This document shows positions 13,196-63,092 of a stretch of 64,000 nucleotides of DNA, piece by piece. The DNA lies in assembly GCF_038725785.1 (NCBI RefSeq), contig NZ_CP109796.1, forward strand, positions 6,510,501-6,574,500. Direction: 5' to 3'. The number at the start of each line of letters is the position of its first letter. Position 1 is the stretch's first letter. Under the pieces are notes generated by a model. It was given only the letters and a program-made list of their open reading frames with translations. It did not search any database and was not told where the DNA came from. The translations under genes were made by a program, and so were the position numbers. This DNA comes from Termitidicoccus mucosus. Its GTDB lineage: Bacteria > Verrucomicrobiota > Verrucomicrobiia > Opitutales > Opitutaceae.

Positions 13196-13476
13196 ATTTC
13201 CCGGAAATAAAACCGACATGAGGGAGCATGCATTCTTGTTTTATTCGCTTTGGGTTCGGCACCCCGGTGCCTGGCATCCCTCTGGCGTGATTCCAGGTTC
13301 GCGCGGCAGCGCGCGTAGCGCAGGCATCCTGCCTGCCGTCGAAAAGAAGGCGCGAAGCGCCGCATTCCAAGCCGAAGGTCACCGCGCTTCGCGCAGCATA
13401 TCGAATGGCAGGCGGGATGCCTGCGCTACGCGCTGCCGCGTCTCTCTTGTCACCAGAAAAACACCACCGACTTTCC
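13196..13476. repeat. Long inverted repeat element in the ABC operon (13301-13440)
   Basis: This 281-bp gap has no gene. It contains an inverted repeat whose arms (about 13301-13341 and 13401-13440) match over roughly 40 bp with few mismatches, both carrying the words GCGCAGGCATC and GCCTGCC. Inside are smaller GCGCGAAGC / GCTTCGCGC arms. A related element lies at 32064-32210. Size and structure suggest a non-autonomous palindromic element (REP or MITE-like) inserted between the receptor genes and the permease gene. Confidence 0.75.
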
Positions 13477-23494: not shown

Positions 23495-24823
23495 ATGCCC
23501 ACCTTCAACCCCGCGCAACTTGCAGCCTGGACCGGCGGTCAATGGACCGCGGCCCCCGGGCGTCCGCTGACCGGATTCTCGCAGGATACGCGCGGGCTTC
23601 GCGACGGTGACGTGTTTGTCGCGCTCGCGACCGGCAAACGCGACGGGCACGACTTCCTTTCCGCCGCCCGCGCCGCCGGTGCGTCCGCCGCCATCGTCGC
23701 CCGCGCCGATGCCTCGGTCGCGCTCCCGCAACTCGTCGTCGCCGACCCGCTCACCGCCTTCCAATCCATCGCGCGCGAACACCGCCGCGCGTTTCCCGGC
23801 ACCGTCGTCGCCATCTCCGGCAGCGCGGGGAAAACCTCCACCAAGGACCTGCTCGCGCTCCTGCTCGGCGGCGCGCCCGCCGTGCTTGCGACCGAGGGCA
23901 ACCTGAACAACCACATCGGCGTGCCGCTCACGCTCACGCGCCTCGACGCCGCCACGCGCACGCACGCCGTCATCGAGGCCGGCATCAGCGCGCCCGGCGA
24001 GATGGAGACGCTGGCCGCGATGATCGAGCCCGACCACGGCATCATCACGCTCGTCGCGCCCGCGCACACCGAGGAACTGGGCGGCGTGGAAAGCGTCGCG
24101 CGCGAAAAATCCGTGCTGCTGCGCCACGTGCGGTCCGGTGGCGTCGGTGTGATTTCCGCTCAATGCTGGGGCTTCAAGGCCTTCCAGGATTTGTCGCTTC
24201 CCCCGCTCGTGGTCGCGCCGGAGACGGAAAGCATCGCCGCGCCGCGCATCGCCACCTACACGGCCACGTTCACCGCTGGCGCCACCGAGTTGGCGATCGA
24301 CCGCACGCGTCATTTTAGATTCCGCCGTGTCACGCGTGGCATGGCGCAAAACGCCGCGCTCGCCGTCATCCTCGCCGCCCGCTTAGGAGTATCCGATTTA
24401 CAGATACAGACGGCGCTCGACGCCTGGCGACCTGCGAAATGGCGCGGCGAAATCCGCCGCGACGCGCGCGGACGCCTGCTCTACCTCGACTGCTACAACG
24501 CCAATCCCGCGTCGTTTGCCGACGCGCTGGAAACCTTCCACGCGCTCGCCCCCGAACAGGAGCCGCGCCTTTACGTGCTCGGCTGCATGGAGGAACTCGG
24601 CCCCGACGCGGACCGCCATCACCGCGCGCTCGGCGCCGCGCTGAAATTGCGCGCACAGGACGAACTCTTCATCACCGGCGGCCACGCCGGCGCGGTGGCG
24701 GAGGCCGCGATGGGATACGGCGCGGACGCATCTCGTATTATTATTTTCGATACAAAGGACAGGGTCATCGGACGCAGAGATTTGGCGGCCCGGTGTTCAT
24801 CGGCAGCCGGCGTTACGCATTGA
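23495..24823 (+). CDS. murF: UDP-MurNAc-pentapeptide synthetase MurF, C-terminus disrupted
   Basis: Adds D-Ala-D-Ala to the UDP-MurNAc-tripeptide. ATP site GSAGKTSTKD at residues 109 onward; NNHIGVPLTLTRLD is typical of MurF. As read here the product is 442 residues, but its last 15-20 residues are out of frame because a 341-bp segment is imperfectly duplicated in tandem. The proper C-terminus is encoded in the second copy and ends at 25212. Removing exactly 341 bp restores a 458-residue MurF. Since MurF is essential, either the truncated form works, the duplication is reversible, or the assembly is wrong. Confidence 0.85.
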   Translation: MPTFNPAQLAAWTGGQWTAAPGRPLTGFSQDTRGLRDGDVFVALATGKRDGHDFLSAARAAGASAAIVARADASVALPQLVVADPLTAFQSIAREHRRAFPGTVVAISGSAGKTSTKDLLALLLGGAPAVLATEGNLNNHIGVPLTLTRLDAATRTHAVIEAGISAPGEMETLAAMIEPDHGIITLVAPAHTEELGGVESVAREKSVLLRHVRSGGVGVISAQCWGFKAFQDLSLPPLVVAPETESIAAPRIATYTATFTAGATELAIDRTRHFRFRRVTRGMAQNAALAVILAARLGVSDLQIQTALDAWRPAKWRGEIRRDARGRLLYLDCYNANPASFADALETFHALAPEQEPRLYVLGCMEELGPDADRHHRALGAALKLRAQDELFITGGHAGAVAEAAMGYGADASRIIIFDTKDRVIGRRDLAARCSSAAGVTH

Positions 24824-24829: not shown

Positions 24830-25212
24830 ACTGCTACAACGCCAATCCCGCGTCGTTTGCCGACGCGCTGGAAACCTTCCACGCGCTCGCCCCCGAACAG
24901 GAGCCGCGCCTTTACGTGCTCGGCTGCATGGAGGAACTCGGCCCCGACGCGGACCGCCATCACCGCGCGCTCGGCGCCGCGCTGAAATTGCGCGCACAGG
25001 ACGAACTCTTCATCACCGGCGGCCACGCCGGCGCGGTGGCGGAGGCCGCGATGGGATACGGCGCGGACGCATCTCGTATTATTATTTTCGATACAAAGGA
25101 CAGGGTCATCGGACGCTTGGAAGAATTTGGCGGCCCGGTGTTCATCAAGGGCAGCCGGCGTTACGCATTGGAGCAGGTGCTGCCCGGGGCAGGGAAGGGA
25201 GGCGCGGCATGA
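24830..25212 (+). pseudogene. murF: Second copy of the murF 3' end, with the intact C-terminus
   Basis: In the frame shifted by 341 bases this segment encodes the last ~127 residues of MurF, including CYNANPASFADALETF, GCMEELGPDADRHHRALG and the end FGGPVFIKGSRRYALEQV, then stops at 25212. It has no start of its own. The stop overlaps the ATG of the next small ORF (25209), which shows that this end, not copy 1, is the original gene boundary. Confidence 0.85.
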
Positions 25213-26734: not shown

Positions 26735-26854
26735 AAAACAAATTAATAATTAATAATTTAATCCCCAAGCCATGCAAATCACACCTGCAATTCTTATTCT
26801 CCATCATGGCGGCACCCCTATTTTTTAATTCTTAATTATTAATTTTCTCCCTTC
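26735..26854. repeat. AT-rich inverted repeat between mraY and murD
   Basis: AATTAATAATTAATAATTTA at 26741-26760 is mirrored by TTAATTCTTAATTATTAATT at 26825-26844. The arms are far more AT-rich than the surrounding genes. No T-tract typical of an intrinsic terminator is set directly after a GC stem, so it is listed as a repeat. Confidence 0.6.
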
Positions 26855-28150
26855 ATGCCCTTCCTCATTCACGACTTTATCAAACCCCTTCTCGCGCAGC
26901 CTGTCGCCGTGCTGGGCGGCGGCGTGAGCGGGCGGGCGGTGATGGTGTTGCTCGAAAAACTCGGCGCGCAAGGCGCGCTCTTCGACGAACGCCAGGAGGG
27001 TGCGCGTCGCGAGTTCACCGAAGCCGACGCGCGCGCGCACCGGCTGGTGGTGTTCAGCCCCGGCTTCGTGCCGGCGCATCCGTGGCTGGAAACCGCGCGC
27101 GCGGCTGGCTGCGAATGCCTCGGCGAGCTGGATTTCGCGGCCCTGTTCTGGCGCGGCACCATCATCGCCATCACCGGCACGAACGGCAAAACCACGCTGA
27201 CCGAATTTCTCACCCACGCGCTCCAGAGCACGAAGCGCCACGCCGGCGCGACCGGCAATGTCGGCCACCCGTTTTCCGCGCTGGTGGCGGAGCGCGAGGG
27301 CGGCGTGTTCGATGAAATCGCGGTGTGCGAGGTGAGCTCGTTCCAGGCGGAGGTGTTCAAGTATTTCCGCGCCGATTCCGCCTTCTGGATCAACATCGCC
27401 GAGGATCACCTTGAGCGCCATCCCGGCATGGCCGCGTATTTCGAGGCGAAGTGGCGTTTGTTTGATCGCACGGTCGGCGGCGTGATGCTCGCGGGCTCGT
27501 CGGTGCGGCGCTTCGCCGAGTCCTGCGGCCGCGTGCTGCCGCCGGATGCATGCGTGGAAACCGAGGGCCAGCCGGCGGACGTGCTCCTGCGCGGGACGGT
27601 TTTCGAGCACTACCCGCAGCGCGAGAACTTTCTTATGGCCGCCGCCTGGTGGCACCGCGCCGGGCTGCCCGAGACCGCGCTTTACGAGGCCGCGCGCAGC
27701 TTCAGGCCCGCCCGCCACCGCCTCTCGCGCGTCGCGGAGCGCGGCGGCGTGACGTGGTGGAACGACTCGAAGGCGACCAACTTTCACGCCGTCGAGGGCG
27801 CGCTCACCCGCTTCACCGCGCCGGTGCTCCTGATCGCCGGCGGCAAATCGAAGGGCGGCGACATCGCGGCCTTCGTGGCCCGCATCGCGCCCCGGGTCAA
27901 ACACGCCTTCCTCATCGGCGACACCGCGCCGGTGCTGGCCGCTGCCTGCCGCGCCCGCGGCGTGCCGCACACGTCTTGCGCGACGCTTGCCTATGCCGTG
28001 CAACAAGCTGCGGAAAATGCGGCCGGCGGAGATGCGGTGTTGCTTAGTCCCGGTTTCGCGAGTTTTGATATGTTCCGCAGTTATCAAGACCGCGGCGACC
28101 AGTTCGAGCAACTTGTGCGCGACCTGCCAGCCCCTTCGATTTCCAACTGA
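26855..28150 (+). CDS. murD: UDP-MurNAc-L-alanine--D-glutamate ligase MurD
   Basis: 431 residues. Adds D-glutamate to UDP-MurNAc-L-Ala. N-terminal nucleotide fold AVLGGGVSGRAVMVLLEKLG; ATP site GTNGKTTLTEF at residue 108; ligand-binding SSFQAEVF and WINIAEDHLERH; C-terminal WWNDSKATNFHAVEGAL and LIAGGKSKGGD. All are typical of MurD. Confidence 0.92.
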   Translation: MPFLIHDFIKPLLAQPVAVLGGGVSGRAVMVLLEKLGAQGALFDERQEGARREFTEADARAHRLVVFSPGFVPAHPWLETARAAGCECLGELDFAALFWRGTIIAITGTNGKTTLTEFLTHALQSTKRHAGATGNVGHPFSALVAEREGGVFDEIAVCEVSSFQAEVFKYFRADSAFWINIAEDHLERHPGMAAYFEAKWRLFDRTVGGVMLAGSSVRRFAESCGRVLPPDACVETEGQPADVLLRGTVFEHYPQRENFLMAAAWWHRAGLPETALYEAARSFRPARHRLSRVAERGGVTWWNDSKATNFHAVEGALTRFTAPVLLIAGGKSKGGDIAAFVARIAPRVKHAFLIGDTAPVLAAACRARGVPHTSCATLAYAVQQAAENAAGGDAVLLSPGFASFDMFRSYQDRGDQFEQLVRDLPAPSISN

Positions 28151-28196
28151 AAAAGCAGCGTATCTTTCGAATCACAACGTCCAACTTGGAGCATTT

Positions 28197-29351
28197 ATGA
28201 AAATCCTAAAAATATTTGGTGCCGTCGTGGCGGTGCACGCCGCGGTGTTTATTTTCGCCTTTGTCATGCCTGGCTGCCGCTCGTCTGCGCGCACGTCGTC
28301 CACGCCGCCGCCCGATGCCTCGCAGCTTCCGCCGACCGCCGGCGCCTACGGCTCGGCCAACTATCAGGCCTCGGGCAATCCCTACGACGGCAGCGGCGTC
28401 AACACCCCCGTCCCGTCGTCCGCATCCGGGCCGGTTTCGGCGACGCCGTCGTATTCGGATTTTGGCGTCGCGCCATCCGCGCCGCTCTCCGGCTTTGGCA
28501 CGCCCGCGCCGGCGCAACCGCTTTATCAGCCCACTGAGGTGACCGGCGTGGTGCCGCTTTCCTCCTACACGGTTGTCTCCGGCGACAGCCTGTGGACGAT
28601 TTCCCGGAAAAAAGGCGTGTCCGTGGATGAGATCAAAGCCGCGAACAACCTGAAATCCAACAACCTCAAAGTCGGCCAGAAACTCCTCATCCCCGCGAAG
28701 CAACCCGCGGGCTCGGCCACGGCCTCCGCCGCCGGAACCGGCGGCGCCGCCGTTGGCTCCGCGCCCGCGTCGGCGACCAGCACCTACACCGTCGTGGCGG
28801 GCGATTCGCTCGACCGCATCGCGCGCCGCCACAACACCACGGTCGCGAAAATCAAGGAACTGAACAAGCTCGCCTCGAACACCATCAGCATCGGCCAGCA
28901 ACTCACGCTGCCCGCGACCGAGGCGGCGTCCACGCCGTCTTATGCGGAACCCGCTTCCACGCCCGCGCCCGCCCGCGCCCAAGGCAACGTCCCGACCACG
29001 ACCATCACCCATACCGTGCAGGGCGGCGAGACGCTCGGCGGCATCGCGAAGAAATACGGCGTGCCGCAGCGCGAAATCGCCGTGGCCAACCAGATCTCCG
29101 ATCCCCGCCGTTTGCAGGCCGGCCAGCAGCTCGTCATTCCCGGCGCGCCTGCATCGCCGTTTGAGCAGCCCGCCCAGCCCGCGCAAACCGGCACGACGTC
29201 GCCGGCCCCGGCCAGCCCGGTTTCCACGAGTCCGGTGAGTTCACCGGTGAGCAGCAGCCCGATCTCCTCCGCGCCGCTCGACACCCCGCCGGTCAACACC
29301 ATCGAGGAGGAAACCCCAACCCCATCCCCTGTCACTCCGCAAGGCCAGTGA
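28197..29351 (+). CDS. LysM-repeat lipoprotein in the dcw cluster
   Basis: 384 residues from ATG 28197. A signal sequence ends in a lipobox-like VMPGC (C near residue 27). A Pro/Ser/Ala-rich spacer is followed by three LysM domains at about residues 123-166, 196-239 and 271-315, each starting with a YTVVSGDSL- or HTVQGGETL-like motif and ending near LLIP/LTLP/LVIP. The last 65 residues are low complexity. LysM binds peptidoglycan glycan chains, so the protein likely sits between the outer membrane and the wall. No peptidase or amidase domain is present. Confidence 0.8.
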   Translation: MKILKIFGAVVAVHAAVFIFAFVMPGCRSSARTSSTPPPDASQLPPTAGAYGSANYQASGNPYDGSGVNTPVPSSASGPVSATPSYSDFGVAPSAPLSGFGTPAPAQPLYQPTEVTGVVPLSSYTVVSGDSLWTISRKKGVSVDEIKAANNLKSNNLKVGQKLLIPAKQPAGSATASAAGTGGAAVGSAPASATSTYTVVAGDSLDRIARRHNTTVAKIKELNKLASNTISIGQQLTLPATEAASTPSYAEPASTPAPARAQGNVPTTTITHTVQGGETLGGIAKKYGVPQREIAVANQISDPRRLQAGQQLVIPGAPASPFEQPAQPAQTGTTSPAPASPVSTSPVSSPVSSSPISSAPLDTPPVNTIEEETPTPSPVTPQGQ

Positions 29352-29379
29352 CCCCTCCGCCCCGCTTTCCTCCTCTTTC

Positions 29380-29487
29380 CTCTTTCCTCTTTATCTTTCT
29401 TCTTTCTCCTCCTGTCCGGCTGATTTTCGTGCGGGACAGGGGGCGGGAAACGGAAGGAGAGAAAGAAGAAAGATAAAGAGGAAAGAG
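29380..29487. repeat. Polypyrimidine/polypurine inverted repeat, copy A
   Basis: A pyrimidine-only arm (29380-29409) is followed by a loop with its own CCTGTCC/GGGACAGG hairpin and a purine-only arm (29456-29487). The arms are complementary over about 30 bp. The purine arm contains the core AAAGATAAAGAGGAAAG. It lies in the gap between the LysM gene and ftsW. Copies B, C and D lie at 30762, 34640 and 62951. Confidence 0.88.
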
Positions 29488-29557
29488 AAAGATTTTTGTC
29501 ACGACCGCCCTCATTCATCACTCGTTCATTCGGCACTCTCCGCCTTTCGCCACCCGC

Positions 29558-30748
29558 ATGGCCAGCCCATCCAGCACCTCCGACCCGTTTTCGTCTGAAA
29601 TCCGTTTTCCGCGCCCGCATCTCGCGCCCACGCCGGCGGCGGTCATCGTGTTGTGCGCCATCGCCCTCACGATTCTCGGGCTCACGGTGCTGTTCAGCGC
29701 CACCGCCACGGTTTCCAAGACGCCGTTCTTTTATCTCACGAAACAGCTCATCGGCGTCGGCCTTGCGGTTGTCGTCGGGTTTGTGGTCAGCCGCATTGAC
29801 CTGGAGTGGGCGCGCGGCCATGTGAAACTCATCGCGATCGGCGCGCTCGCCCTGCTCGTGCTGGTGCTGGTTCCGCACATCGGTATCTCGGTTAACGGCA
29901 GCCGCCGCTGGCTGGGCCTCGGCCCGGTGCGCCTGCAAGTCTCCGAGATCGGCAAGATCGCGATGGTCTTCTGCCTCGCGCATTATCTGGCGATCAACCA
30001 GGTCTTCATCGGCCGGTTCAAGCGAGGCTTTCTCATCCCGATGGTGATCGTGGTCTGCACGGGCGGCCTCGTCGCCAAGGAGCCCGACCTGGGCACCGCC
30101 GCGCTCATCATGGCGGTCGGCGTGCTGATGCTTTTTCTGGCCGGCGTGCGCTGGCGTTATCTTTTCGCGGCGCTCATCGCGGGCGCGGGGGCGTTTTCGC
30201 TGATGGTGTATCTGATGCCGAACCGGCTCACCCGCTTCACCGCGTTTCTCGACGTGGAGGGCAACAAGCAGGACGGCACCTACCAGCTCTACCAGTCGCT
30301 CGCGGCCTTCGCGGTCGGCGGCGTGAACGGCGCCGGGCTCGGCCAGGGCCTCCAGCAGCAGCACTACCTGCCCGAGGCGCACACCGACTTCATCTTTTCG
30401 GTCGTCGGCGAGGAGCTCGGGCTGTATTTCACCATCGGCGTGGTGGCTCTGTTCATCGTCATATTCATCGCGGGCATCGTGCACCTGCGGCGCGCGCCGA
30501 ATCTGTTTCAATTTCTCCTCGTGAGCGGCGCGCTGCTCCTGCTCTCGATGCAGGCTATCATCAACCTGGGTGTCGTCACCGGCGTGCTTCCCACCAAGGG
30601 CATGTCGCTGCCGTTTGTCAGTGCGGGACTGTCGAACCTGCTGCTCATGGGCGCCATCGTCGGGATTTTCGTGAACACGCAAAGGGCGTGGTCGCGCCCG
30701 GCCCTCTCGCCCCGCCGCCGGACCCTGCGGGAGGTCGTGCAAACATGA
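29558..30748 (+). CDS. ftsW: Lipid II polymerase FtsW (SEDS family)
   Basis: 396 residues with about ten membrane helices. SEDS family glycosyltransferase that polymerises septal peptidoglycan with FtsI. Typical stretches: ISVNGSRRWLGLGPVRLQVSEIGKI, VAKEPDLGTAALI, GLQQQHYLPEAHTDFIFSVVGEELG and PTKGMSLPFVSAGLSN. Its stop overlaps an ATG (30745) of a tiny ORF that holds repeat copy B. Confidence 0.93.
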   Translation: MASPSSTSDPFSSEIRFPRPHLAPTPAAVIVLCAIALTILGLTVLFSATATVSKTPFFYLTKQLIGVGLAVVVGFVVSRIDLEWARGHVKLIAIGALALLVLVLVPHIGISVNGSRRWLGLGPVRLQVSEIGKIAMVFCLAHYLAINQVFIGRFKRGFLIPMVIVVCTGGLVAKEPDLGTAALIMAVGVLMLFLAGVRWRYLFAALIAGAGAFSLMVYLMPNRLTRFTAFLDVEGNKQDGTYQLYQSLAAFAVGGVNGAGLGQGLQQQHYLPEAHTDFIFSVVGEELGLYFTIGVVALFIVIFIAGIVHLRRAPNLFQFLLVSGALLLLSMQAIINLGVVTGVLPTKGMSLPFVSAGLSNLLLMGAIVGIFVNTQRAWSRPALSPRRRTLREVVQT

Positions 30749-30888
30749 GCGCCATCGATTCCTTTCTCTTTCCTCTTTCTCTTGATCTTTCTTCTTTCTC
30801 CCCGTTGTCGCGGCGCGGGGAAAGGACGCAGGAGAAAGATAAAGAGAAAGAGGAAAGAGAAAGATTCAGCAGGGAGACCCAGCCATGA
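30745..30888 (+). CDS. Linker ORF carrying repeat copy B between ftsW and murG
   Basis: 47-residue frame, starting in ATGA overlap with the ftsW stop and ending in ATGA overlap with the murG start (30885). Nearly all of it is repeat sequence, giving a serine/leucine/phenylalanine-rich half and a K/E/R-rich half. The product is unlikely to have a conserved function, but the frame could keep ribosomes coupled from ftsW to murG. Confidence 0.4.
   Translation: MSAIDSFLFPLSLDLSSFSPLSRRGERTQEKDKEKEERERFSRETQP
30762..30863. repeat. Polypyrimidine/polypurine inverted repeat, copy B
   Basis: Pyrimidine-rich left arm 30762-30801 and purine right arm 30831-30863, complementary over about 33 bp except for a 7-base bulge and one mismatch; the loop has a CCCCG/CGGGG pair. 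The purine arm has AAAGATAAAGAGAAAGAGG, a slightly longer version of the family core. Confidence 0.88.
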
Positions 30889-32033
30889 GCATGCCGAAAA
30901 AAACCTTCCTCATCGCCTGCGGCGGAACGGGCGGACACCTCTCGCCCGGCATCGCGCTGGCCGAGGGGCTCGTCGCGCGCGGCTACTCCGCCACGCTGTT
31001 GATCAGCCGGAAAAAAGTGGACTCGCGCCTCGCGGAAAAATACCCGCACCTGACATTCCTGCGCGTGCCCGGCTCGCCGCTTTCGCTCAACCCGGTCCGG
31101 TTCGCCAAATTCGTGTTTACCCAGGCGCACGGGTTCGCCTATTGCGCGAATCTCGTGCGCCGCGAGCGCCCCGTCGGCATCGTCGGCTTCGGCGGTTTCA
31201 CCTCGGCCGGCATCGTGCTCGCGGGCTCGCTGCTCGGCGTGCCGGTGGCGCTCCACGAGGCCAACCGCGTGCCCGGCCGCGCCGTGCGCGTGCTCAGCAT
31301 GGTGGCGCGCCGCGTTTACCTGCCGCCCGGCGCGCACCTCTCGAGACACTCACTCGCCGTGCAGCGCACCATGGGGCTGCCCGTGCGCAAGGAAATCGTC
31401 CGCATCCCCGTCGCCGGCGCGCGCGCGCAGCTCGGCCTCGACCCGCAGCGCCCGGTGATCGCCGTGCTCGGCGGCAGCCAGGGCGCGTCGTCGCTCAACA
31501 CCTGGGCGCGTGACCACGCGGCGGCCTTTGCGCAGGTCGGCGTGCAGGTTTACTGCGTGACCGGCCTCGGCAAAAGCGGCGCGGAAACCATCGAAAATCC
31601 ATCGCGCCACGGCGAGGCCGTCCGCACGATTTTCTCGCCCTTCTGCGACCGCATGGGCGCGCTGCTCTCCGCCGCCGACCTCGTCGTGTCGCGCGCCGGC
31701 GCGGGCACCATTGCCGAACTGATCCGCTGCGCCACGCCCGCCGTGCTCATCCCGTATCCGCATGCGGCGGACAACCACCAGCTCGCCAACGCCCGCCTCT
31801 TCGAGCAGCAGGGCGGCGGCATCATCGTCGGAGAAACCGCGATGGATACGCTAGCCCGCGAGGTCGGCGACATCATTTTCAACGACGGCTTGCTGCGGAA
31901 ATTCCGCGAGAATCTCCAGCGCATGGACCGCGCCAATTCGCTCGACATCCTGCTCGACGATCTGGAGGCGCTGGCCGGCCTGTCCGAGCCGAAGGCGCCC
32001 GCGCAGCCGCAAGCCGAAGGAGGTGCGGCGTGA
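30885..32033 (+). CDS. murG: Lipid II synthase MurG
   Basis: 382-residue glycosyltransferase (GT-B fold) that adds GlcNAc to lipid I at the inner face of the membrane. Motifs: ACGGTGGHLSPGIALAEGL at the N-terminus, HEANRVPGRAVRVLS, VLGGSQGASSLN and SRAGAGTIAELI, followed by PYPHAADNHQLANAR. An alternative start is ATG 30891. Start overlaps the linker ORF stop. Confidence 0.93.
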   Translation: MSMPKKTFLIACGGTGGHLSPGIALAEGLVARGYSATLLISRKKVDSRLAEKYPHLTFLRVPGSPLSLNPVRFAKFVFTQAHGFAYCANLVRRERPVGIVGFGGFTSAGIVLAGSLLGVPVALHEANRVPGRAVRVLSMVARRVYLPPGAHLSRHSLAVQRTMGLPVRKEIVRIPVAGARAQLGLDPQRPVIAVLGGSQGASSLNTWARDHAAAFAQVGVQVYCVTGLGKSGAETIENPSRHGEAVRTIFSPFCDRMGALLSAADLVVSRAGAGTIAELIRCATPAVLIPYPHAADNHQLANARLFEQQGGGIIVGETAMDTLAREVGDIIFNDGLLRKFRENLQRMDRANSLDILLDDLEALAGLSEPKAPAQPQAEGGAA

Positions 32034-32063
32034 GAAACCCCCGGAATAATCGCGTCCGTCTCA

Positions 32064-32210
32064 TGGCGCAGGCATCCTGCCTGCCATCCTTTTTCTGCGC
32101 GAAGCGCTCTGTTTTTTTCAACCTCGGGTGGTTCGGTGCAAAATCGGTTCTCTCGATATTCACCGCGCTTCGCGCGCCTGTTTTCGACGGCAGGCAGGAT
32201 GCCTGCGCCA
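32064..32210. repeat. Long inverted repeat element before murC-murB
   Basis: The left arm (32064-32088) contains GGCGCAGGCATCCTGCCTGCC-like sequence and the right arm (32186-32210) is its inverse. Inner arms pair GCGCGAAGCGC with GCGCTTCGCGC. Same family as 13301-13440; the outermost words GCGCAGGCATC are shared. It lies between murG and murC-murB. Confidence 0.78.
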
Positions 32211-32247
32211 CACGCTTCGCGCCCGTCGCGCGGTTTTTGTCCGCCGC

Positions 32248-34614
32248 ATGACCGCCCCTTCCGACAACTCCCCGCCCCCGCTTCCGATGCTCTTTGGCCG
32301 CGCCGTGGCCGCGATCCATTGCGTGGGTGTCGCGGGCATGGGCCTCGGCCCGCTGGCGATTTATCTGGCGCGGCTCGGCTTCGAGGTCAGCGGCGAGGAC
32401 GACCACATGAGCGGGGTCATGCACGCGCAACTCGAACGCGCCGGCATCGCGCTCACGCCCACTGGCGGCCTGCCGGGGCGGTGCGATCTCGTGGCGTGCT
32501 CGTCTGCGGTGCGCGACGGGCATCCCTCCGTCGGCGCGGCGCGCGGGCGCGGCATCCACGTGGTGCGCCGCGGCGAGCTTCTTGCCGAAATTGCGCGCGG
32601 AAAAAAACTCGTCGCCATCTGCGGCTCGCACGGGAAGACCACCACGACCGCGCTGCTCGTCACCGCGTTGCGCCGCGCGGGGTTTCCCGCCGGCTACGTG
32701 CTCGGCGGGCTTTTTGACGACGATGCCACGCCGCCCGCCGACGCCGCCGGGTCGGACTGGCTCGTCGCGGAAATCGACGAGAGCGACGGCACGATAGAAA
32801 ATTTTTCGCCCGAAATCACCGTGGCCGGAAACCTCGACTGGGATCATCCCGACCACTACCGCGAGCCCGCCGCGATCGAGGCGGCGTTTGCCGGCATCTT
32901 CGGACGCACGCGCGGAACCGTGCTGCTCGGCGCGAACGCCTTTGCGGGCGGCGCCAGGCTCAGGCAGCCGCTGCGCGAATCGATCGTCACCTTCGGTCCC
33001 GGCGCGGACTTCGATTTTCGTGTCGAAAACGAATCACCCGCCGACGGGCGCCAGGCTCTCGCGCTCGGCGGGCGTTTTCCCATCGCGACCGCGACCGTGC
33101 GCGCGCTTGGCGCGTTCAACGCCGCCAACGCCGCCGCCGCGCTCGCCGCCGCGCACCTGATGGGCGCGCCGCTCGCGCCCGATCTGCTCGCCGCCTTTCC
33201 CGGCGTGCGCCGCCGCCAGTCCGTGCTGCTCGCCAACAGCGAGTTGACCGTTATCGAGGACTACGCGCATCATCCGGCGGAAATCTCCGCGCTGCTCGCC
33301 AGCCTGCGCGCGCGCATCGGGGGCAAGGGGCGGCTGATCGTGGTGTTCCAGCCGCACCGCCACAGCCGCACCGCGCGCTTCAAGGCCGACTTCGCCGCCG
33401 CGCTCGCGCTGGCCGACCGGGTGTCCCTCATCGACGTCTATCCGGCGGGCGAGCCCCCGCAGGAAGGCGGGCACACCATCGACGTTTATCGCGAGCTGCG
33501 CCGCGCCGCGCCCGCGCTGCCGGTGGTCTATTGCAATGGAAAGACGGATGTGATGCTGGCCGTGCTCGCGCGCTCGGTCACGCCGGGCGACTGGGTGGCG
33601 TTCGTCGGCGCGGGCGACATCGACCGGCGCGCGCGCGAGTGGCTCGTGCTGGCCGACGAATACCGGCGCGTGGCCAACCGCTGGGCGACCATCGCGGTCG
33701 CCCTGCGCGGCAGCGTGTCGGTCGAGACCAAGGTGCGCCACGAGGAGCCGCTTGCGCCCAGGACCACGATGCGCGCGGGCGGCGCGGCGCGCATCTATGC
33801 CGAGCCGGCGGGCGAGACGGACCTGCGCGCATTGCTGCGCGAGGCCCGCGCGCGGGCGCTGGATGTTTTTCTGCTCGGGCGCGGCTCGAATCTCATCGTG
33901 CCCGACGAGGGCGTGGACGGGCTCGTCATCTCGCTCGCGCATCCGGCATGGCAGGCGTTTGAACCGCGCGGCGACGGCGGCATATGGGCGGGCGCGGGCG
34001 TGCGTTTGAAAAATCTCTGCGGCCTCGCGGCCAAGGCCGGGCTGGGCGGGTTCGAGTTTTTGGACGGCATTCCGGGCAATCTCGGCGGCGCGCTGCGCAT
34101 GAACGCCGGCGCGATGGGCGCGTGGACCTTCGACGTGGTCGAGCGGGTGCGCCTCATGACGCGCGACGGCGAGGTGCGCGAGGTGCCGCGCGCGGAGTTG
34201 CACACGGGCTACCGGCATTGCGCGGAGTTGCGCGACGGCGGCATCGCGCTCGGGGCGCTGCTGCGGCCTTCGGCGGCGCGTCCGGCGGAGGACATCGCCC
34301 GCCAGCTCGACGCCTACCGCGACAAGCGCCGCGAATCCCAGCCGCGCGAGCCGAGCGCGGGTTGCATTTTCAAGAACCCGGAAGGCGCCGCCGCCGGACG
34401 CCTCATCGACGAATGCGGACTGAAGGGCGAGTGCGTGGGCGGCGCGGAAGTATCCGCCGTGCATGCCAATTTCATCGTCAACCGCGGCGGCGCGACCGCG
34501 ACCGACATCATCGAGCTGGCGCGCATCGTCCGCGTCAGGGTCGCGGAGAAAACCGGCGTCACGCTGGAGCCCGAGGTGATTTTATACGGAAAGGAATGGA
34601 GGGAGGTTTTATGA
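32248..34614 (+). CDS. murC-murB: MurC-MurB fusion (UDP-MurNAc--L-Ala ligase / UDP-MurNAc reductase)
   Basis: 788 residues in one frame. Residues 1 to about 475 are MurC: GVAGMGLGPLA, ATP site G126-S-H-G-K-T-T132, YAHHPAEISALL and FQPHRHSRTARF. From about 483 to the end is MurB, the FAD enzyme making UDP-MurNAc: TTMRAGGAARIYAEP, LGRGSNLIVPDEGVDG, GIPGNLGGALRMNAG and AGCIFKNPEG. In that last motif a cysteine takes the place of the serine that donates a proton in E. coli MurB. The two enzymes act in consecutive steps in the order MurB then MurC. The ATG at 32248 follows the repeat element. No stop or frameshift separates the halves. Confidence 0.92.
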   Translation: MTAPSDNSPPPLPMLFGRAVAAIHCVGVAGMGLGPLAIYLARLGFEVSGEDDHMSGVMHAQLERAGIALTPTGGLPGRCDLVACSSAVRDGHPSVGAARGRGIHVVRRGELLAEIARGKKLVAICGSHGKTTTTALLVTALRRAGFPAGYVLGGLFDDDATPPADAAGSDWLVAEIDESDGTIENFSPEITVAGNLDWDHPDHYREPAAIEAAFAGIFGRTRGTVLLGANAFAGGARLRQPLRESIVTFGPGADFDFRVENESPADGRQALALGGRFPIATATVRALGAFNAANAAAALAAAHLMGAPLAPDLLAAFPGVRRRQSVLLANSELTVIEDYAHHPAEISALLASLRARIGGKGRLIVVFQPHRHSRTARFKADFAAALALADRVSLIDVYPAGEPPQEGGHTIDVYRELRRAAPALPVVYCNGKTDVMLAVLARSVTPGDWVAFVGAGDIDRRAREWLVLADEYRRVANRWATIAVALRGSVSVETKVRHEEPLAPRTTMRAGGAARIYAEPAGETDLRALLREARARALDVFLLGRGSNLIVPDEGVDGLVISLAHPAWQAFEPRGDGGIWAGAGVRLKNLCGLAAKAGLGGFEFLDGIPGNLGGALRMNAGAMGAWTFDVVERVRLMTRDGEVREVPRAELHTGYRHCAELRDGGIALGALLRPSAARPAEDIARQLDAYRDKRRESQPREPSAGCIFKNPEGAAAGRLIDECGLKGECVGGAEVSAVHANFIVNRGGATATDIIELARIVRVRVAEKTGVTLEPEVILYGKEWREVL

Positions 34615-34739
34615 GCACGCACGAATCAGGGTGTCTTGTCTTTCCTCTTTCTCTTTATTCTTTCTCTCCTTCGTTCCTGACGAAAGAGAAAGATAAAGAG
34701 GAAAGAAGAAAGATCATGAAATGGAGGGTGCGCCCGTGA
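34611..34739 (+). CDS. Linker ORF carrying repeat copy C between murC-murB and ddl
   Basis: 42-residue frame with ATG overlapping the murB stop (34611) and TGA overlapping a GTG at 34736 that fits as a ddl start. Most of it is repeat copy C. It has the same arrangement as the ORF between ftsW and murG: overlap, serine/phenylalanine-rich half, K/E/R-rich half, overlap. Probably a coupling relic rather than a functional peptide. Confidence 0.4.
   Translation: MSTHESGCLVFPLSLYSFSPSFLTKEKDKEERRKIMKWRVRP
34640..34713. repeat. Polypyrimidine/polypurine inverted repeat, copy C
   Basis: Pyrimidine arm 34640-34672 and purine arm 34681-34713 with a short loop closed by TTCG/CGAA. The purine arm contains the exact family core AAAGATAAAGAGGAAAG. 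Pairing is less perfect than in copies A and D. Confidence 0.85.
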
Positions 34740-35680
34740 CCACGCATCCCACCATCGCTGTTTTTGCCGGAGGCACTTCCTCCGAGCGCGAGGTTTCGCT
34801 CGGCTCCGGCGCGGCCTGCGCGGAGGCGCTGGCGAAAAACTTCGCCACGGAGTTTTTCCAGATCGACTCCAACGCGCTGCCCGCCGGGCTCGATCCGGCG
34901 CGGCACGTGGTGTTTTCCACTTTGCACGGCACCTTTGGCGAGGATGGCGGAATGCAGCGCCTGCTCGACGAAGCGGGTGTGTTTTACGCGGGCTGCGGCG
35001 CGACGGCGAGCGAGCTCACGATGGACAAGTCCGGCACCAAGCACGCAGTGGCGAGGCAGGGCGTGCGCGTGCCGCCGGGCATCGCATTCCCGTCCGACCG
35101 CAAACCCTCCGCCACGGAGGTCATCGCGCAACTCGGCGGCCAGCTCGTGCTCAAGCCGAACAGCGAAGGCAGCAGCGTCGGGCTGCACCTCATCTCGGGC
35201 CGCGCGCAACTGGAGGCCGCACTGGCGGAGGTGACGACGAATTGCGGCTGGATCATCGAGCGCCGCATCGTCGGGCGGGAGTTGTCCGTCGGCGTGTTGA
35301 ACGGCCGCGCGATGGGCGTGGTGGAAATCCGTCCGCGCTCCGGCGTGTATGACTACGCGAGCAAATACACCAAGGGCGCGACCGAGTATCTCGCGCCCGC
35401 CCCGATCGGCGACGCGGCCACGCGCGCCGCGCAGGAGGCCGCCGGGACGGCGTTCGCCGCGTGCGGCTGCCGCGATTATGCGCGCGTCGATTTCATATTA
35501 TCGGCGGAAAACGAATTGTTTCTGCTGGAAATAAACACGCTGCCCGGTATGAAGGAGACCAGCCTGCTGCCAATGAGCGCGCGTTGCGCGGGACTGGATT
35601 TCACCGCCTTGGTCCGGGAACTGGTTTCGCCCGCGATGCGGCGTTTTCTGACGGCGCGGGAACAGCAAAAAAGCGCATGA
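34721..35680 (+). CDS. ddl: D-alanine--D-alanine ligase
   Basis: 319 residues from ATG 34721, or 314 from GTG 34736, which overlaps the linker ORF stop and gives TTHPTIAVFAGGTSSERE. ATP-grasp enzyme making D-Ala-D-Ala for MurF. Motifs: AGGTSSEREVSLGSG, VFSTLHGTFGEDGGMQ, LKPNSEGSSVGLHLI and EINTLPGMKETSLLPMSA. Its stop overlaps the start of the next gene (ATGA at 35677). Confidence 0.93.
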   Translation: MEGAPVTTHPTIAVFAGGTSSEREVSLGSGAACAEALAKNFATEFFQIDSNALPAGLDPARHVVFSTLHGTFGEDGGMQRLLDEAGVFYAGCGATASELTMDKSGTKHAVARQGVRVPPGIAFPSDRKPSATEVIAQLGGQLVLKPNSEGSSVGLHLISGRAQLEAALAEVTTNCGWIIERRIVGRELSVGVLNGRAMGVVEIRPRSGVYDYASKYTKGATEYLAPAPIGDAATRAAQEAAGTAFAACGCRDYARVDFILSAENELFLLEINTLPGMKETSLLPMSARCAGLDFTALVRELVSPAMRRFLTAREQQKSA

Positions 35681-36678
35681 AAGCACCACCCGGAAAAACC
35701 ATCAGGCCTCGTCCCGCATCGTGGGAGGACCTCGTGCGCGATCCGCTCCCGCACCGGGTGATGGCCCCGGCGGGCCGCAAGCGCCGCGCTTTCTCCACGC
35801 TCAGGACGGTCGGTTGCATCGCCATCCTTTGCACCGCGGCGTGGGCGGGTTTCGAGCTTTACCGCATGTGGGAGTCAAACCCGGCGCGCATCAAGGCGCC
35901 CGCGCAGGGCGAGCCGCTCAAGACCATCGCATTCCAGACCAACGGCGTGCTCGACCGCGCCTGGGCCGAGCGGACGCTCGCGATTCCGCCCGGCACCGGC
36001 ATGATGGCGCTGGATTTGTTTTTGTTGCGCGACCGGCTGCTCGCGACCGGGCAGGTGCGCGCCGCCGTGCTCGCGCGCAATTTTCCCGACACGCTTTCCG
36101 TGGTGATCGAGGAGCGCGATCCGGTCGCCCGCATCGTGGCGCGCGAACCGGGCGGCGCACCCGAGACGTTTCTGGTGGACCGCATCGGCACCGTGTATTC
36201 AGGAATCAACTACCCGGACGCGCTGGTCTCGTCGCTGCCGTATCTCGCCGACGTGCGCCTGCGCCGCGTGGAAAACGGCAATGGTTTCGCGCCGGTCGAG
36301 GGCATGGAGACCGTCTCCAACCTCATCGGCACCGCGCGCGCCTACATCCCGGCGCTGTTTTCGCGCTGGCATTCGATCTCGCTCGCCCGCCTCGCGCCCG
36401 ACGGCGTGCTGGTGGTGCGCTCCGCCGACGTGGAGACGCTGATTTTCGGCACGCGCGACGATTTCTTCAAGCAGGTCGCCCAGCTCGACTTCATCGTGGA
36501 CGAGTCGCGCGCGCAGTCCGGCATCGGCCCGATCAAGATTGTCGACCTCTCCGTCGGCCGCACCGTGAGCGGCACGCAGATCCCCGTCACCTACGGCGCG
36601 GCCCCGCTGGTTCCCGGCCAGGCGCGCCGCTCCCCGGCGCCGGCGCGCGCGGGGGAGGGATATGTTTTCCAACCCTAG
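35677..36678 (+). CDS. ftsQ: FtsQ/DivIB-like division protein (by position and architecture)
   Basis: 333 residues: cytoplasmic N-terminus of about 45 residues, one membrane segment (FSTLRTVGCIAILCTAAWAG), then a POTRA-like domain (IAFQTNGVLDRAWAERTL, LLRDRLLATGQVRAAVLARNFPDTLSVVIEERDPVARI). It lies between ddl and ftsA, the usual ftsQ position, and starts in a 4-bp overlap with ddl. Sequence conservation in FtsQ is low, so the assignment leans on order and layout. Confidence 0.75.
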   Translation: MKAPPGKTIRPRPASWEDLVRDPLPHRVMAPAGRKRRAFSTLRTVGCIAILCTAAWAGFELYRMWESNPARIKAPAQGEPLKTIAFQTNGVLDRAWAERTLAIPPGTGMMALDLFLLRDRLLATGQVRAAVLARNFPDTLSVVIEERDPVARIVAREPGGAPETFLVDRIGTVYSGINYPDALVSSLPYLADVRLRRVENGNGFAPVEGMETVSNLIGTARAYIPALFSRWHSISLARLAPDGVLVVRSADVETLIFGTRDDFFKQVAQLDFIVDESRAQSGIGPIKIVDLSVGRTVSGTQIPVTYGAAPLVPGQARRSPAPARAGEGYVFQP

Positions 36679-62895: not shown

Positions 62896-62950
62896 GTCAC
62901 CCTGCGACTGGCGCAATGGACTGGCAAAACCATGCAAACCACTTTTCCCC

Positions 62951-63035
62951 CTCTCTTTCTTCTTTCCTCTTTATCTTTCTCTTTCGTCAGGGACGGGAGA
63001 GGAGAAAGATAAAGAGGAAAGAAGAAAGAGAAAGA
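62951..63035. repeat. Polypyrimidine/polypurine inverted repeat, copy D
   Basis: Pyrimidine arm 62951-62983 and purine arm 63002-63035 pair over about 30 bp; the core AAAGATAAAGAGGAAAG is exact. It lies between the DUF1566-like gene and uvrB (convergent), 25 kb from the other copies. Confidence 0.88.
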
Positions 63036-63092
63036 TTCCGGCGGTGACATCACTTTCTGTTGCCCCCTGCGGGAGGGTTTGCGTCTTTGCCT

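Follow-up and report, generated by a model that had tools for sequence, protein, structure and literature searches.

What are the hairpins that separate several genes of the division and cell wall (dcw) cluster of Termitidicoccus mucosus (Verrucomicrobiota, Opitutaceae), and how did they come to lie there? The window analyzed here, a stretch of 64,000 nucleotides (contig NZ_CP109796.1, positions 6,510,501 to 6,574,500), contains four of them, each consisting of a nearly pure pyrimidine arm, a loop and a nearly pure purine arm; copies 1–3 lie in the cluster and copy 4 outside it (Table 1). Together with the origin proposed below, we consider it rather probable that they belong to a family of small, noncoding, dispersed palindromes of Opitutaceae, which resembles repetitive extragenic palindromic (REP) sequences and miniature inverted-repeat transposable elements (MITEs) and is unusual in the low complexity of its arms. 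The four hairpins lie where a preliminary description of this DNA had placed them, and they stand far above chance: ten pyrimidine or purine tracts of the window scored at least 20, eight of them within the four hairpins, as compared to a mean of 0.08 and a maximum of 1 in 50 first-order Markov sequences, and the RNA folds of copies 1–4 (-70.8, -62.3, -35.3, and -54.6 kcal/mol) gave z values of -6.8, -7.4, -5.0, and -5.6, respectively. Ungapped stem pairing amounted to 97% over 32 nt, 94% over 34, 79% over 29, and 100% over 30 in the same order, and no Rfam family fitted the hairpins, a tRNA being the sole match of the window at gathering score. The exact core described as common to all four is carried by copies 1, 3, and 4, while copy 2 reads GATAAAGAGAAAGAGGAAAG. 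Their identical orientation, to which attention had also been drawn, is trivial for a palindrome and uninformative, because the succession of pyrimidine arm, loop and purine arm is its own reverse complement, and copy 1 is preceded by a LysM-protein gene rather than murD.

The genome-wide search for the core that had been proposed at the outset established a true repeat family. The host genome (7.92 Mb, two contigs) holds 58 + 56 = 114 exact matches to the 17-nt core and 90 + 90 = 180 matches with up to one mismatch, against none for a reversed-pattern control. The arms of this family, here called CTTT, are built of CTTTCT, CTTTCC, and CTTTAT words. The exact core was present in 7 of 57 genomes distributed over five genera, namely all three of the genus (the host and the fragmentary sister-species genomes G001 and G002, with completeness 72 and 68), G019 (11 matches), G022 (16), G028 (1), and G031 (1), and in none of 20 genomes outside the taxonomic family. 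Among the 16 core matches read in the last four genomes, 14 had a partner arm within 200 nt and the other two were lone arms; the 14 make up 13 hairpins, one of which carries the core on either side. Since partnered core matches occur in other genera, the hairpin family is wider than its MITE subfamily, whose terminal repeat (up to two mismatches) was found in G001 and G002 and not in G019 and G022, the two tested. At L161 915-6896 (G022) four core matches lie within 6 kb, three being hairpins with one common loop and the fourth a lone arm; the three are a recent local spread. Two host composites of the GTTCTC(CTTT) type likewise have arms and loop in common, and these shared parts in both genomes indicate that spread is unit-wise. 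The nearest named relatives by MurG were the Opitutaceae metagenome-assembled genomes Ct408_bin80 (89%) and Nm470_bin120 (86%), whose contigs belong to G002 and G001, respectively, as mirror-image match coordinates indicate; such genomes come from termite guts.

Evidence for mobility comes from the sorting of 89 paired CTTT copies, found among the matches listed in 754,585 bases of DNA chosen mainly for the core or the terminal repeat, after unpaired tracts (14 pyrimidine, 21 purine) had been dropped: 31 were MITEs with both terminal repeats, 40 were solo copies, defined by the missing terminal repeat and having unique loops, and 18 were intermediate. The MITEs (N-A subfamily) measure about 143 bp, have terminal inverted repeats GGGTGYAACTCAAAGT and 8-bp target duplications, and lack coding capacity. 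At offsets of 6 nt or less, the duplications were perfect in 14 of 31 cases and matched at 7 or more of 8 positions in 20, as compared to 2.7 and 10.2% with permuted ends. The initial suggestion of a mobile element is supported by the number of core matches and by the terminal repeats and target duplications of one subfamily. The intermediate copies are as expected from decay; copies 3 and 4 belong to them and look like MITE remnants. Copy 4 has retained the right terminal repeat, its left one having decayed, and copies 1–3 have neither.

Table 1. Hairpins of the window and the terminal repeat beside copy 4 (window positions).
Feature	Positions	Strand	Gene setting	Details
Copy 1, solo type	29352..29492		LysM-protein gene (stop 29351) / ftsW (29558)	stem 29377-29408 / 29459-29490; pyrimidine arm, loop GTCCGGCTGATTTTCG..., purine arm
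Copy 2, solo type	30759..30864		ftsW (stop 30748) / murG (30885)	stem 30762-30795 / 30830-30863
Copy 3, intermediate type	34634..34713		murC-murB (stop 34614) / ddl (34721)	MITE loop CGTTCCTGACG kept; no terminal repeat above background
Copy 4, intermediate type	62942..63035		uvrB stop 57 nt upstream	stem 62952-62981 / 63002-63031; MITE loop TTTCGTCAGGGACG kept
Right terminal inverted repeat, MITE at copy 4	63044..63067	-		3 mismatches to GGGTGCAACTCAAAGTGATGTCAC; G000:C1:6573544-6573567
Hairpin of other vocabulary, AATTAAT type	26740..26845		gap before murD; 5 nt after stop 26734, 9 nt before murD ORF start (26855)	AATTAATAATTAATAATTTAA / TTTAATTCTTAATTATTAATTT

The classes also differed in their position relative to genes, as measured with our own caller of open reading frames (ORFs). 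Intergenic positions were held by 36 of the 38 placed solo copies, two lying inside genes, and two further copies lay at edges. For the 31 solo copies between co-directional genes, median distances were 11 nt to the preceding stop and 54 nt to the following start (Wilcoxon p = 0.008), with 20 copies within 15 nt of the stop and 22 within 25 nt; the 12 co-directional intermediate copies had medians of 19.5 and 73 nt, respectively (p = 0.005). Of 29 MITE copies, 11 were in divergent gaps (Fisher p = 0.0016 vs. solo). None of 15 MITE copies lay within 25 nt of a stop with the pyrimidine/purine tract as the reference point, and 4 of 15 did so once 33 nt had been subtracted by hand for the terminal repeat (Fisher p = 0.0099 vs. 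solo). The tight target preference that had been suspected is half right: the solo copies are mostly found just after stops between co-directional genes, the MITEs less so. The left gene of site 3037232, on the + strand, is presumably pstB, judging from sequence features of its product.

Solo sites were usually shared with the sister species. For 33 sites (13 MITE, 15 solo, 5 intermediate) the coding flanks, 100 nt long, were sought in G001 and G002; with the four window sites added, 13 of 37 sites had both flanks in at least one relative, the alignments being judged by reading. A low-complexity hairpin occupied the orthologous site in 11 of 12 solo comparisons (nine sites), seven times with CTTT arms (in one case the loop held an insertion of some 450 nt) and four times with GTTCTC or mixed arms; at solo site 2828587 G001 had no hairpin. 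In the window, the copy 1 site bore a CTTT hairpin in both relatives, the copy 2 site a CTTT hairpin with homologous loop in G001 and a GTTCTC hairpin in G002, and the copy 3 site a nested palindrome in G002, with GTTCTC enclosing CTTT arms, while the copy 4 flank in G001 and G002 held other repeats and no CTTT hairpin. The intermediate site 3171660 corresponded to a CTTT hairpin in G001, and of two MITE sites G002 lacked the MITE at one (3251321) and held a diverged MITE at the other (5673509). Possibly, although we advance it tentatively, what these bacteria conserve right after a stop codon is the presence of a low-complexity hairpin of whatever kind, kept across species while its letters are rewritten or give way to another family, so that the process at work, be it selection or a mutational mechanism making DNA palindromic, would act on form and not on sequence.

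CTTT is not the only vocabulary of this kind. A census covering the window and 20 stretches of 20 kb each (464,000 bases in all) returned 49 hairpins that scored at least 17; the Markov-3 controls, one for every stretch, gave none. Besides GC-rich palindromes of the REP-like kind and a single GTTCTC hairpin, the 49 comprised the AT-rich vocabularies CTTT, AATTAAG, GAATTAC/GATTTAC, and AAATCCC. Several of the AT-rich vocabularies occurred 0–25 nt after stops, and pyrimidine/purine purity is not essential. Of the 57 genomes, 18 had a 15-nt GTTCTC word, and all of these belong to the taxonomic family. One hairpin of another vocabulary precedes murD in the window (Table 1), following an ORF which is probably mraY, and in a relative, L090, a TTTTCGATT hairpin occupies the corresponding gap upstream of murD. 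The dcw cluster itself, singled out in the preliminary description, is no special place: in a survey of the murG surroundings, taking in at most 5.6 kb before and 1.4 kb after the start of the gene, as far as each locus extends, AT-rich hairpins were present at 4 of 23 loci (those of both sister species, L090 and, weakly, L073), and beyond the genus they were mostly absent. In the sister species, the murC-murB fusion region contains low-complexity hairpins both in its linker and in its MurB part (L063 6533-6725 and 8116-8242); G002 also has one in the linker, where the window has none.

We propose that the CTTT family spread as a non-autonomous unit, its transposase being supplied in trans, and that after insertion the terminal repeats and the loop would decay while the arms would be kept complementary by processes at the DNA level, such as template switching in quasi-palindromes, slippage and conversion between copies. 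Copies after stop codons may persist since a strong hairpin there would be tolerated or mildly useful, through a 3′ barrier in polycistronic mRNA or ribosome stalling of the kind envisaged for those E. coli REPs that follow a stop codon by no more than 15 nt and were reported to lower translation (PMC12306157). An effect of the solo hairpins on translation or mRNA would fit the 20 of 31 copies at such a distance. The evidence for upkeep in DNA, be it through conversion among copies or through template switching, a process by which hairpins are known to arise and to be repaired (PMC8794818), is modest. Nine stems with homologous loops had 22 of 361 pairs mismatched (6.1%, with 17 gapped positions set aside), somewhat fewer than under simulated neutral decay, which gave 8.8% at the fourfold divergence of each split (15 of 600 runs as low) and 12.1% at loop divergence (0 of 400 runs as low); loops at the homologous-loop sites, cut by hand, were 85% identical between species, and fourfold sites of murG were 88.7% (G001) and 92.7% (G002) identical to the host. 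Mean self-pairing exceeded mean cross-pairing in 7 of 7 orthologous CTTT pairs (six sites), by small amounts averaged by hand. On the sense strand G-U pairs did not exceed A-C pairs (13 vs. 13 in co-directional solo copies, 19 vs. 22 in all classes), and since they did not, nothing points to pairing in RNA.

Several points weigh against this account. As regards the upkeep of the stems, the simulation of neutral decay ran without indels, assumed perfect stems at the split and covered the nine stems only. Across loci, the pairing of an arm with its own partner was no better than that with the partners of other arms (median 21 vs. 22 for solo copies), and arm co-evolution across loci was accordingly rejected; given this negative test and the small self-cross gaps, upkeep in cis is weakly supported. 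The excess of solo copies in co-directional gaps (31 of 36, with 3 convergent and 2 divergent; background gaps 304/60/57) was not significant (p = 0.08), nor was the divergent deficit (p = 0.20), and part of their proximity to stops could arise if insertions were tolerated only at a distance from the following ribosome-binding site. None of the 40 solo copies had perfect 8-bp duplications and 3 of 40 reached at least 7/8, as compared to 6.1% with permuted ends; because of this lack, mobility of the solo class is argued only from sequence identity at many sites. No pair of MITE ends 1–3 kb apart, as an autonomous element would have, was seen by eye among the host matches listed. Finally, given how the DNA was chosen, the proportions of the classes are not genome-wide and the set leans to core-bearing copies.

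The most serious alternative holds that these are intercistronic RNA hairpins, where selection on the transcript keeps a strong stem right after the stop, regardless of its letters (for 3′ protection, stalling or attenuation), and the families act as interchangeable suppliers. The stop-proximal position, the sites kept in sisters with changed arms, the several AT-rich vocabularies at 0–25 nt from stops, the strong folds and the precedent of the E. coli REPs would all suit it. Against these stand the lack of a G-U excess, the 19 of 23 loci with no AT-rich hairpin in the murG region and the results on terminator features: TTTT followed within 12 nt of 6 of 40 solo hairpins (T fraction 0.28), and a terminator scan of positions 28000-36000, restricted to loops of 3–8 nt, placed none of its 16 sites in the three dcw hairpins. 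As most lack a T-run, the solo hairpins are not standard terminators. We rate this alternative as unlikely, if still worth consideration; the protection of mRNA initially suggested finds no RNA-level signature, whereas the position would fit a REP-like effect.

Less probable still is a purely mutational product, in which slippage grows tandem words and template switching palindromises fragile spots, with no element moving. The number of arm words does differ between species, with expansion on both sides at site 3983115 in G002, tandem expansions stand beside copy 1 in G002, and the making and repair of hairpins by template switching, as reported in the source cited above, would serve this model equally. 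However, an identical 17-nt core at more than 100 sites and in other genera needs dispersal, and the terminal repeats and target duplications of one subfamily also speak against this model. The gap beside copy 1 in G002 (L062 3457-3719) has grown, with respect to the window, into degenerate tandem repeats of the CTCATTC- and CCGCCTTTCGCC-type. Selection of homopurine-homopyrimidine composition for triplex or H-DNA, also put forward at first, is very improbable and was rejected as a unifying function, because equivalent positions are filled by AATTAAG, GAATTAC, AAATCCC, and GTTCTC hairpins, which are not homopurine. The nearly pure pyrimidine/purine arms would suit it, as would a mirror symmetry that exceeded that of block shuffles by a small margin (mean 8.6 vs. 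7.0; mean percentile 0.73, 80 arms).

The dispersed-palindrome family we favor has counterparts among known systems. With GTAG/CGTC-tagged REPs and their paired forms (REPINs), accompanied by REP-associated tyrosine transposases (RAYTs), it shares high-copy intergenic palindromes, the lack of coding capacity and a 3′-biased position, but its stems are longer, of low complexity and of several vocabularies. The tags were not above background at the foot of the solo palindromes (GTAG 1 of 40, CGTC 9 of 40; background 4.8 and 21.2%), and a link with RAYTs was rejected, no CTTT hairpin lying within 1.5 kb of any of the seven Y1_Tnp matches in the host; one of the seven had a hairpin (score at least 16) of another family within that distance. 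High enrichment in GTAG repeats has been reported for Opitutus terrae (PMC3733652). The GC-rich palindromes of the census, at window positions 13311-13433 (GTAGCGCAGGCATCCTGCCTGCC) and 32064-32210 (TGGCGCAGGC...), L171 8077-8141 and L176 14730-14796, with GTAGGGCGAGGCGTCCCGCCGAGCC as a further sequence and a GTAG start in most, are likely true REP/REPIN families of the host genome. At L034 a CGCTTGCGCAAGGAGGGGCGGCGTCC hairpin stands on both sides (1275-1414, 2190-2328) of a Y1_Tnp match (1501-1731), which looks like a RAYT with its REPs.

MITEs with 8-bp duplications are like the N-A subfamily in the size of about 143 bp, the terminal inverted repeats, the duplications and the noncoding nature, but here the internal low-complexity hairpin also occurs without terminal repeats, in other genera. 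The TAACTGA heptamer repeats of Beggiatoaceae and Cyanobacteria are described as intergenic arrays of direct repeats of one exact heptamer, in a Guaymas strain mostly just upstream of start codons (PMC4679880); many intergenic arrays of short words are the common trait, while the CTTT family differs from these and from short tandemly repeated repetitive (STRR) sequences in its inverted arms of degenerate mixed 6–7-mers and in its solo copies lying mostly after stops. Prokaryotic intergenic stem-loops in general are concentrated 3′ of coding sequences (PMC1590033), and the CTTT family is peculiar in that families may replace one another at one site between sisters. No paper on CTTT or GTTCTC palindrome families of Verrucomicrobia/Opitutaceae was found among the open-licence PMC papers listed, and the main text of RepRanger contains neither "Verrucomicrob" nor "Opitut."

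Two further repeats of the window are recorded here. A perfect 287-nt direct repeat (24489-24775 and 24830-25116, starts 341 nt apart) lies around an ORF end and is either a recent duplication or an assembly feature. Between 10962 and 13096, two repeat pairs (77 and 74% identical), with starts 1156 nt apart in both, are probably an old tandem gene duplication.

Two families of dispersed palindromes of Opitutaceae, CTTT and GTTCTC, are thus described, and the three sister genomes constitute a natural experiment on the origin and lasting pairing of bacterial hairpins. The point that deserves attention is the retention of a site with turnover of its letters: since the site persists while the arms change in length, words or family, selection on RNA and template switching in DNA become directly addressable as explanations.

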